DNA from: a virus
DNA length: 47,095 nucleotides
Virus record (IMG/VR): IMGVR_UViG_3300021959_000076
Coordinates: 1-47,095 of that record
Reading direction: 5' to 3' (one strand)
Shown here: positions 38,757-45,355 of the stretch, one piece after another
How positions within the stretch are numbered: position 1 is the first letter of the stretch
Layout of the letters: each line of letters begins with the position of its first letter
Translations under genes and position numbers: made by a program
Notes under the pieces: model-generated
Told to the model about the DNA's origin: nothing
The model's input: only the letters and a program-made list of their open reading frames with translations
Database searches by the model: none

Positions 38757-38992
38757 TTTTTTTGTATTTTAACTGTTCCGTTTGTATCTATCTCAATAAC
38801 GGAAGATTTAGATTGTTTATTAAATTCTACAATATATGGGGATATATCAGTACGAGTTACTATAAATGATAAGAATACTTGCAATTCTTTTAACAATATA
38901 TCGCTTTTTTCTTGTAATTCTAGAGTTTTTATCTTAGCATCTAATAGTGTATGATAATCCTCAAGATTCATAGTAACTTGACCTTTTACCAC
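38753..38992 (-). CDS. Small coiled-coil protein, unknown function
   Basis: 79 residues. A heptad-like helix (about 9-50: LEDYHTLLDAKIKTLELQEKSDILLKELQ...) is followed by a beta hairpin (SSVIEIDTNGTVKIQKK). Overlaps the GroES-like gene by seven bases and the 67-residue gene by four. It could be a small assembly or regulatory factor. Confidence 0.55.
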   Translation of the reverse strand: MVKGQVTMNLEDYHTLLDAKIKTLELQEKSDILLKELQVFLSFIVTRTDISPYIVEFNKQSKSSVIEIDTNGTVKIQKK

Positions 38993-39255
38993 TTCCCTAA
39001 TATTTGATGTTCTGAGATAACTAGGTATAATTGCCCGTCAATCTCTGTTCTTGCAGCTTCTGATCTAGGATCTACCATTACAATGTCTCCTTTTTCTACA
39101 AAGTTACAATGAGGCCCAACAGCAAGCGCCTCCAAAACGTTTGATCGCTTTGCATTTTCCTTAGCTGTAGTTTCATCTAAGATTATTCCTGATTCTGTTT
39201 CTGTAATTACTGGGTCCGGAAGGACTATCCAGCTTCCACTTGGTTTAAAATTCAT
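38986..39255 (-). CDS. GroES-like co-chaperonin
   Basis: 89 residues from the ATG at 39255. The frame stays open another 62 codons upstream, but that extension reads through a promoter and structured RNA and has no protein character, so I reject it. The protein follows the Cpn10 layout: 'PSGSWIVLPDPVITETESGIILDE' (opening strand and mobile-loop turn), 'LEALAVGPHCNFVEKGDIVMVDP' (VlaVG...GD.V motif, residues 43-65) and 'IDGQLYLVISEHQILGKW'. Phage GroES homologues (as T4 gp31) work with host GroEL in capsid folding. It is the first gene after the leftward promoters. Confidence 0.65.
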   Translation of the reverse strand: MNFKPSGSWIVLPDPVITETESGIILDETTAKENAKRSNVLEALAVGPHCNFVEKGDIVMVDPRSEAARTEIDGQLYLVISEHQILGKW

Positions 39256-39273
39256 ATCTATATATTTTTTATG

Positions 39274-39306
39274 CAAATATATAAACAATTTTTTTACATT
39301 TCCAAA
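39274..39306 (-). promoter_or_regulatory. Bacteroidetes-type promoter before the GroES-like gene
   Basis: On the minus strand, TATATTTG (39281-39274) fits the -7 box TAnnTTTG and a TTTG/TTG at 39306-39303 stands 21 bases upstream as the -33 element. The predicted start is about 10 bases before the GroES-like ATG. No Shine-Dalgarno follows, as is normal for Bacteroidetes. Confidence 0.6.
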
Positions 39307-39309
39307 TAT

Positions 39310-39560
39310 CTGTGGAGAAAATATAGCTCTCCCCCTTGAGGATTCTATTTCAAGTTGTGATTTCACTCTAGCAGTGCTCCGTTTTACGGGACCTAAGGAT
39401 ACTAAAACTGGTGTTAATTCACCGCACCTACCTGTGTGCATTGTATCCTAACTAGAGCTTATACGTTAACTCTTTTGCAACTACCGGAGAAAACTCTATC
39501 TCTATTTGAGACTACAATCCGATGTCTTTTCCCTTTTTTGGTTACCGAGGGATGAATAAT
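39310..39560 (-). ncRNA. Structured leader RNA or small RNA
   Basis: A 250-base non-coding stretch of higher GC with nested inverted repeats. Stems seen: CTCTAG 39366-39371 with 39452-39457; inside it GGATAC 39397-39402 with 39443-39448, which encloses hairpins GGTG/CACC (39410-39423) and GCAC/GTGC (39424-39439); CCGT/ACGG hairpin (39379-39389); TCTC/GAGA hairpin (39499-39511) within a 6-bp stem (39483-39488 with 39518-39523) that needs a G.T pair on the minus strand; and GGAGA/TCTCC near 39314-39333. Upstream lies a consensus promoter (39570-39599). It could be a regulatory 5' leader of the late operon or an independent RNA. No known RNA family, tRNA or riboswitch could be matched. Confidence 0.55.
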
Positions 39561-39569
39561 GTTGCAGTG

Positions 39570-39599
39570 CAAAATTAATAAAAATTAATTACATTCCAA
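39570..39599 (-). promoter_or_regulatory. Strong Bacteroidetes-type promoter for the leftward operon
   Basis: Minus strand: TTG (39599-39597), a 19-base spacer, then TAATTTTG (39577-39570), a full match to the Bacteroidetes -33/-7 consensus with the classical spacing. Transcription would begin near 39565 and read through the structured RNA into the GroES-like gene and beyond. Confidence 0.7.
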
Positions 39600-40271: not shown

Positions 40272-40706
40272 ATGCTTACTATGAACGCACCAGTTGGACA
40301 AATAACTAAACTATCAAATGGTTTAAAAGTAGCTAATTTCAGTTCACCTCATCCATTTACATTTGATGATGGGAGTGTAATACCTGCAGTAAATGATAAT
40401 GAAAGCCAAAGATTAAAAGTAAATTTCATTGAAACTGTAGTTGAAGTTGACAATGAATCTGCAGTTGAATTTAAAACAATATCACTTAATTTTGAATTAA
40501 GTAATGATGTTTTTAGTTCTATGTCTCTATGGCATAAACTATGGGAAGATAGAAAAGTTGACATAGTTTTATGTCCTTTACCAATGATACAAGCTTTACA
40601 AAAGACTAATGATGATTTACAATCATTAATAAATAGTCCATTTAGAGCAATAAGAATGAAAGATAGAATTAAGAAATTAATATCTATTGATACATTTACA
40701 ATATAA
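40272..40706 (+). CDS. Conserved phage protein of unknown function
   Basis: 144 residues, alpha/beta. An N-terminal beta region (ITKLSNGLKVANFSSPHPFTFDDGSVIP) is followed by acidic strands (FIETVVEVDN...ISLNFELSND), then 'LWHKLWEDRKVDIVLCPLPMIQAL' (about 87-110) and a basic helical end (FRAIRMKDRIKKLISI). The 'VDIVLCPLPMI.AL' pattern recalls a protein common in marine phages near replication genes. No catalytic motif. The structured region starts at its stop codon. Upstream, 40096-40271 holds the terminator and two repeats but no gene. Confidence 0.65.
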   Translation: MLTMNAPVGQITKLSNGLKVANFSSPHPFTFDDGSVIPAVNDNESQRLKVNFIETVVEVDNESAVEFKTISLNFELSNDVFSSMSLWHKLWEDRKVDIVLCPLPMIQALQKTNDDLQSLINSPFRAIRMKDRIKKLISIDTFTI

Positions 40707-40778
40707 TTATAATGTGTAGTTAAGCGCCGGGGTTGCCCTTCGTTGGAGTAAGTAGGAAAGGCTAAGCCACATTATAAT
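40706..40778 (+). ncRNA. Long-stem structured RNA element 1
   Basis: An 11-bp perfect stem (ATTATAATGTG 40706-40716 with CACATTATAAT 40768-40778) closes a 51-base GC-richer interior that can form GGG-gttg-CCC and a GCC/GGC pairing. It starts at the last base of the upstream stop codon. First of a series of such elements in this arm. Confidence 0.55.
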
Positions 40779-40823
40779 TTTAGAAATAACAAACGGAGGT
40801 TTGCAAGCCTCTTTAGAGTAAGA

Positions 40824-40932
40824 ACTGTCGCTAATACTTGTGCTAGCAAGAGTAGACAGTAATATGTAGTCATCCAGACGAATACATGTGAACAAATGTT
40901 CATGTGTCACTAACTTAGCAGTTAGACATATT
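40824..40932 (+). ncRNA. Hairpin plus four-way-junction RNA element
   Basis: A hairpin ACTGTC-GCTA...TAGC...GACAGT (40824-40860) is followed immediately by a cloverleaf-like element (40861-40932): a 7-bp closing stem AATATGT/ACATATT, a small GTC/GAC arm, a 10-bp arm ACATGTGAAC/GTTCATGTGT with AAAT loop and two G.T pairs, and a 5-bp arm CTAAC/GTTAG. The shape resembles a tRNA, but the TTC T-loop and CCA end are absent, so it is not a tRNA gene. Confidence 0.5.
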
Positions 40933-40950
40933 AAAAGTATATAAACAACA

Positions 40951-41040
40951 AACAATTAATCTATTGTTAGTATGATACTAAACTATCTATGAGGTCACGC
41001 CTTTGACTTATGGTAGTATGCTGTAGCTTGTAGTGAGCTA
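40951..41040 (+). ncRNA. Run of hairpins in the 550-base structured region
   Basis: Consecutive stems: AACAAT/ATTGTT (40951-40968), TAGTA/TACTA (40968-40980), a 13-pair bulged stem (40983-40997 with 41004-41016, containing two G.T pairs on the plus strand), and TAGCT/AGCTA (41024-41040). No open frame longer than trivial crosses it on the plus strand. Confidence 0.45.
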
Positions 41041-41090
41041 TTCAATGTAATTATAACATCCAAGTGGACTAGTAATTATAAGAGTATATC

Positions 41091-41228
41091 GGGAGATGTA
41101 TAGTAAGTATCGAGATTTGCAGGTGTTAAAACCTGATGGTTATACTTTGGAACTGATAATTCCCTTGCTCGTGTTTAATGCAGCAATACTGGTCACAAGC
41201 CCAGTTGAGAAATGCAGAGTGGACACGA
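41091..41228 (+). ncRNA. Two nested stem elements closing the 550-base structured region
   Basis: First element: GGGA/TCCC (41091-41094 with 41161-41164) encloses GTATA/TATAC (41098-41102 with 41141-41145) and hairpin CAGGT/ACCTG (41120-41135). Second: TCGTGT/ACACGA (41169-41174 with 41223-41228) encloses ACTGG/CCAGT (41188-41205). The region ends 27 bases before the next gene. A direct repeat GTAATTATAA precedes it (about 41,047 and 41,071). Confidence 0.45.
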
Positions 41229-41255
41229 ATAAATTAATTTAACAAATAACTAAAC

Positions 41256-45159: not shown

Positions 45160-45160
45160 T

Positions 45161-45231
45161 TATGAGTGGGGCCCTAACCTAACCGGATGTATAAGAGCGT
45201 CCTTAATATTAAATGTTTTGCCTCACTCATA
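45161..45231 (+). ncRNA. Long-stem structured RNA element 5
   Basis: TATGAGTGGGGC (45161-45172) pairs over 12 positions with GCCTCACTCATA (45220-45231), one being G.T on the plus strand. Inside is a GGATG/CGTCC hairpin (one T.G pair) and a TTAATATTAA palindrome. It starts one base after the polymerase stop. No T tract follows. Confidence 0.6.
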
Positions 45232-45244
45232 TTCACACAAGTAA

Positions 45245-45333
45245 TTACGGCGGGGCAGACATAAAAGATTATAACTACACGAAGTAGGGACTAATCTACA
45301 ACCAGGTTAATACTCTTGGCTGCCCCGTGGTAA
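45245..45333 (+). ncRNA. Long-stem structured RNA element 6
   Basis: CGGGGCAG (45251-45258) pairs with CTGCCCCG (45320-45327), extended by a G.T pair, one mismatch and TTAC/GTAA to about 13 pairs. Inside, AGATTA/TAATCT (45266-45271 with 45292-45297) encloses CTAC/GTAG (45275-45287). It lies 13 bases after element 5 and 22 bases before the next gene. Confidence 0.6.
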
Positions 45334-45355
45334 ACTAAAATAAAATATAATAGAT

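Follow-up and report, generated by a model that had tools for sequence, protein, structure and literature searches.

A large ornate phage RNA that ends in a twister ribozyme, apparently of an undescribed class

To our knowledge, no more than a handful of giant ornate RNA classes have been found, and their jobs remain open. GOLLD and ROOL are often located near tRNA islands. ROOL occurs in phages and prophages and exhibits extensive covariation (PMC12286853). In GOLLD, a palindromic loop (L21a) switches from GC to CG, which was treated in a cryo-EM paper as the signature of homotypic kissing loops, and the palindromic loop by which OLE dimerises likewise switches its sequence (PMC12286853).

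The window analysed here was a viral record of 47,095 nucleotides (IMG/VR IMGVR_UViG_3300021959_000076, positions 1 to 47,095). Its phage was assigned as crAss-like by DNA polymerase and terminase, and the portal and major head protein families were also matched. Called genes covered approximately 95% of the record, and the gap at 40707-41255 was the longest in the window at 549 nt. Its GC content of 0.355, compared with 0.323 overall, ranked second among the gaps, behind 45160-45355 (0.383). A preliminary description of the sequence had singled out this gap as exceptionally long (about 550 bases) and more GC-balanced than the others; the length was borne out, and so was the GC balance with the exception of one gap. 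Compared with dinucleotide shuffles, the plus strand of the gap folded more stably (z = -3.28; 0 of 100 shuffles were as good), and no excess stability was found for the minus strand (z = -1.21).

To collect homologs, 80 loci were retrieved based on PolA. By blastn, several of these loci matched window positions 40779-41254 with 67-91% nucleotide identity, and their upstream genes differed. The RNA was present in 8 of the 80 (one copy cut short), and several loci were too short upstream to judge. The set was then enlarged by iterated nhmmer searches and by pattern scans for which the twister core, an internal loop and the 5' hairpin served as anchors. Further full-length copies were found in 20 virus contigs, giving 21 contigs with the window, and four partial copies (L037, L022, L170 and L024) were found besides. 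As L015 was a duplicate of L016 and L003 nearly so of L040, 19 distinct full-length sequences were aligned, the window among them. Over the RNA body, the members were 50 to 92% identical to the window. With a covariance model of the 5' domain, members scored at least 87 bits and everything else about 20 bits or less. An additional pattern scan yielded no further divergent members, and none of 13 pattern matches in bacterial genome contigs was a family member by nhmmer. Annotated phage records contained no relative of the RNA body, the single match, to L174, spanning the twister only; a match to a Lak phage was rejected as an AT-rich chance alignment outside the RNA. No description of this RNA was found in the literature, of which subscription papers were mostly not covered, and an earlier description cannot be excluded.

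The conserved RNA with its 3' twister occupied 40786-41226 on the plus strand. The preliminary description had placed a structured RNA at 40706-41255; the structured RNA was upheld but its limits were not, the first 80 nt falling outside. The anatomy of the RNA in window coordinates is as follows.

40786-41226, plus strand: whole RNA with the 3' twister, defined by nhmmer, the alignment of 19 distinct members and covariation counts
40795-40812, plus strand: 5' hairpin, 5 of 5 pairs altered on both sides
40801-40806, plus strand: invariant palindromic loop of the 5' hairpin, UUGCAA (UUCGAA in L077 and L093), from the loop listing
40816-40822, plus strand: 5' strand of the long-range closing helix (partner 41164-41170), 100% paired, 4 of 7 pairs altered on both sides
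40825-40859, plus strand: two-tier stem-loop (helices 3 and 4)
40860-40933, plus strand: three-hairpin junction (helices 5-8), the second hairpin with 10 covarying pairs and a loop region that contains an invariant AAU
40934-40941 with 41141-41148, plus strand: helix
40974-41111, plus strand: central multibranch domain (helices 10-17 and alignment)
41059-41068, plus strand: optional hairpin in the central domain, missing from L187, L077, L093, L174 and L213
41120-41135, plus strand: hairpin
41149-41163, plus strand: hairpin beside the closing helix, 100% paired, 4 of 4 pairs altered on both sides
41164-41170, plus strand: 3' strand of the closing helix, followed by the twister with zero linker
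41171-41226, plus strand: type-P1 twister ribozyme (RF03160 match at 41172-41225), P2 and P4 covarying

The first 80 bases of the gap (40707-40785) hold a hairpin at 40705-40779 that was specific to the window, with no match among the fetched loci. In some other phages the same slot is occupied by small hairpins, each having a long outer stem rich in AT around a structured interior. One of these, at 4575-4649 in L101, was identical in L126 and in L086; the latter lacks the large RNA in its available stretch.

The fold was initially derived with RNAalifold from 12 members, which gave 118 predicted pairs, 60 of them with compensatory change. Across these members the predicted pairs were 98.2% paired, compared with 86.7% in shuffled and 34-42% in slid controls. 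For the 19 members, this fold was projected and two helices were added from inspection and a covariation scan, resulting in 22 helices and 125 pairs, with 94.1% paired as against 78.4% (shuffled) and 35-42% (slid). Changes on both sides were seen at 87 of the 125 pairs, where shuffles gave 50.4, and the covariation score was 0.484 compared with 0.205. The shuffles ignore relatedness and sliding favours a structure derived from the same sequences; the margin was wide on both. The structure also held in members that were only 50-55% identical. The earlier count of at least nine stems was therefore right about dense structure but too low, and random substitution in the stems, which would have refuted the proposal, was not what comparative folding revealed; extensive covariation was found instead.

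No conserved reading frame was present in the RNA on either strand, the longest stop-free runs varying in frame and length among the 19 homologs, and a protein-coding reading of the region was rejected for both strands on this basis. The proposal that the gap contains no credible protein was thus supported, and encoded proteins, the other observation that would have refuted it, were looked for and not found. The window RNA is conserved, non-coding and structured.

At gathering scores, Rfam matched nothing in the region. The gathering and permissive searches together yielded only the twister, so that a known-family identity for the RNA body was rejected; snoRNA and IRES-like matches were at chance level and were discarded. 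For GOLLD, ROOL, OLE and HEARO, no Rfam 15 covariance match was obtained with E up to 10 and permissive filters in three divergent members (the window, L093 and L040). The RNA is similar in kind to these families, being large and ornate, and GOLLD and ROOL are also phage-borne. That it is a divergent member of one of the four is nonetheless highly improbable, since Rfam 15 was blank for all of them even though the 54-nt twister was detected, and no tRNA genes were found in the window. The absence of tRNA and tmRNA genes also excluded these as the identity of the RNA. The suggestion of a possibly different class of large ornate RNA was supported by these results, the fold being covarying, phage-borne and without a match to the four families. 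The terminal twister and the exchange of the RNA as a cassette had gone unnoticed in the preliminary description.

The permissive search of the region revealed a type-P1 twister (RF03160) at 41172-41225 that matched the full model with 43.7 bits (E = 2.4e-8), below the Rfam gathering cut-off of 67.2 bits. In every full-length copy the twister followed the closing helix without a linker. Its P2 and P4 covaried across the 19 members and the conserved core was invariant, with P2 solved as UGCA/UGCA, AUCA/UGAU, UGUA/UACA, AGUC/GACU and others. Based on characterised twisters, the cleavage site presumably lies between U41176 and A41177. With E up to 1, a twister was found in 7 of 50 contigs searched whole, and all seven carried the RNA; four of them had been listed because of the RNA. 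A circular or cut-out RNA between two twisters was rejected, as each full-length member carries a single twister, located 3'. Contigs with two twister-core matches do exist, none of them family members.

The lack of any linker in the window between twister P1 and the closing helix could also be explained by a cis-acting aptazyme or leader, in which the large domain would sense a ligand or protein and gate the stacked twister, cleavage controlling the gene approximately 35 nt downstream. The recognised downstream frames, which mostly start about 30-50 nt past the twister, fit this explanation. It remains doubtful, however, as members differ in their downstream gene and likewise in the upstream gene, and standalone phage twisters also have a stem beside P1 without any large domain.

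The surroundings of phage twisters outside the family were surveyed for hairpins of at least 5 pairs and -6 kcal/mol ending within 4 nt of the P1 side. Such hairpins were present at 36 of 46 twisters, compared with 29 of 178 control positions in the same contigs. Some of the 46 contigs are interrelated, so that their independence is incomplete, and coding DNA is among the control positions. The surveyed twisters often sit behind a gene and a stable hairpin ending 0-4 nt before P1 (e.g. L166, L172, L185 and L192). The excess of hairpins next to P1 is consistent with 3'-end formation by phage twisters and suggests a general role in cutting behind a stable stem, leaving a protected 3' end in place of a terminator. 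The hairpin-plus-twister layout offers a testable answer to what twisters do in phages, namely making RNA 3' ends.

That unrelated phages show this layout behind genes would also suit a reading in which the RNA is an exceptionally large 3' untranslated region and shields the upstream mRNA by its fold and twister end, and in L016 and L052 the RNA begins at or just past a stop codon. This was considered unlikely. A short hairpin would suffice for such a purpose, conservation of the 390-nt fold far exceeding the need, and L101 and L126 have no same-strand upstream gene of at least 60 aa within 900 nt of the twister.

The genes up- and downstream of the RNA varied from member to member. In crAss-like members with PolA on the locus, the RNA lay approximately 1-3 kb upstream of PolA among changing small genes. 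The closest phage relatives lacked it: L047 has a different 118-aa gene at that position, and the two flanking genes, of 84 and 90 aa, are next to each other in L048. The RNA of L128 was 91.7% identical to that of the window, compared with 54.9% for PolA (partial), whereas L187 had a TerL 95% identical and an RNA only 60% identical, in a different slot. L174 and L213 belong to a different phage type, with no match to a window protein near the RNA and no capsid gene of the window phage's family in their whole records; a sigma factor, a RecE-like exonuclease and a primase surround the RNA in L174. RNA similarity disagrees with phage similarity; together with the differing neighbours and the absence of the RNA from close relatives, this is the behaviour of a cassette exchanged between phages. 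The varying neighbours and the relatives without it further argue for an element that stands alone and against a regulator tied to a single gene.

The patchy distribution and the exchange between phages could be accounted for by a selfish or mobile RNA element of no benefit to the phage. This was judged quite improbable, as each record searched carried a single copy, with no encoded enzyme and no second flanking twister, and the loops are finely conserved as well as the stems.

Other conserved elements were observed near the RNA. A second structured RNA of about 250 nt lies on the minus strand at approximately 39318-39570, near a divergent promoter region. By blastn it was matched with 71-97% identity in over 40 of the fetched loci, and it seems near-universal in the window's phage group. 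Its 56 pairs were 96.1% paired, compared with 88.2% (shuffled) and 34-50% (slid), and 24 were altered on both sides. No Rfam family matched it, and no relative was found in the annotated phage collection; it may equal the large RNA in interest. The GroES-like gene on the minus strand (38986-39441) was called too long, its N-terminal part overlapping the second RNA, and translation probably begins at the ATG of ATGAATTTTAAACCA, close to 39256. A small element of about 60 nt, GTGGATAAAT ... CACCACACTYGGTAAYAGAGA, was found at 4807-4876 in L029 and also in L008, L101, L106, L107, L109, L216 and L217. It may form a pseudoknot (GTGG with CCAC). Some phages have this element just ahead of the large RNA, and others have it without the large RNA.

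The loop of the 5' hairpin was UUGCAA in 17 members and UUCGAA in two, both of which are palindromes. As this reflects a single switch event, and UUCGAAA also fits a T-loop, the switch is a lead and not proof. The sole candidate in the window for an intramolecular partner of UUGCAA, near 41115, was rejected because it is not conserved in the alignment. Self-assembly through the loop is plausible, no assembly data being available.

Taken together, the large RNA was postulated to be a trans-acting, non-coding ornate phage RNA that is matured by its own ribozyme, an explanation that we consider rather probable and to which the aptazyme, the protective 3' region and the selfish element are less likely alternatives. 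Conservation of the fold, presence of the twister, absence of any conserved protein and exchange between phages were shown; transcription, cleavage, release, self-association and phage benefit are inferred. The RNA would be transcribed together with the early operon on the plus strand, and its body would form a ring shut by the long-range helix. Directly behind the ring, the twister is predicted to cut at U41176/A41177, which would leave an RNA of approximately 390 nt (391 nt) ending shortly after the helix with a six-base tail, and free the downstream mRNA by the same cut. The released RNA may then work as a structural RNA, potentially as a dimer or larger homo-oligomer via the palindromic 5' loop, and could benefit the phage during early infection. 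Points against this explanation are the twister score below the gathering cut-off, the loop switch that rests on one event and could reflect a T-loop, and the unexplained origin of the 5' end, which in some members (L016) coincides with the stop codon of the gene before it. More tentatively, the family may represent a self-processing ornate RNA class of crAss-like and other phages, released by the twister, self-assembling via the palindromic loop and forming an RNA-only complex for early infection.

With cleavage still a prediction, the RNA would add a self-processing class to the few giant ornate phage RNAs, distinguished by its compact size, many covarying pairs, crAss-like home and a built-in ribozyme that would set the 3' end. 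Given these features, maturation and self-assembly are each testable in vitro. Compared with other type-P1 twisters (RF03160), the P1, P2 and P4 helices and the conserved core are shared, but the window's copy forms the 3'-terminal module of a large and conserved RNA, with minimal internal loops and a score below the gathering cut-off. Like GOLLD, the RNA is a large, many-helix phage RNA of unknown function with a palindromic loop switching GC to CG (PMC12286853); it differs in its length (about 390 nt, GOLLD often exceeding 800), its terminal twister, the lack of a sequence or covariance match and the absence of tRNA genes from the window. ROOL is likewise a large phage RNA with extensive covariation (PMC12286853), whereas the window RNA is shorter, has the twister attached, gives no covariance match and lies in a window without tRNA genes. 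OLE is also large, with a switching palindromic loop through which OLE dimerises (PMC12286853); the window RNA, in contrast, is phage-borne, carries a twister and has no Rfam covariance match to OLE. The RNA, with its twister attached, apparently forms a class of its own among the large ornate RNAs of phages, one not described so far.
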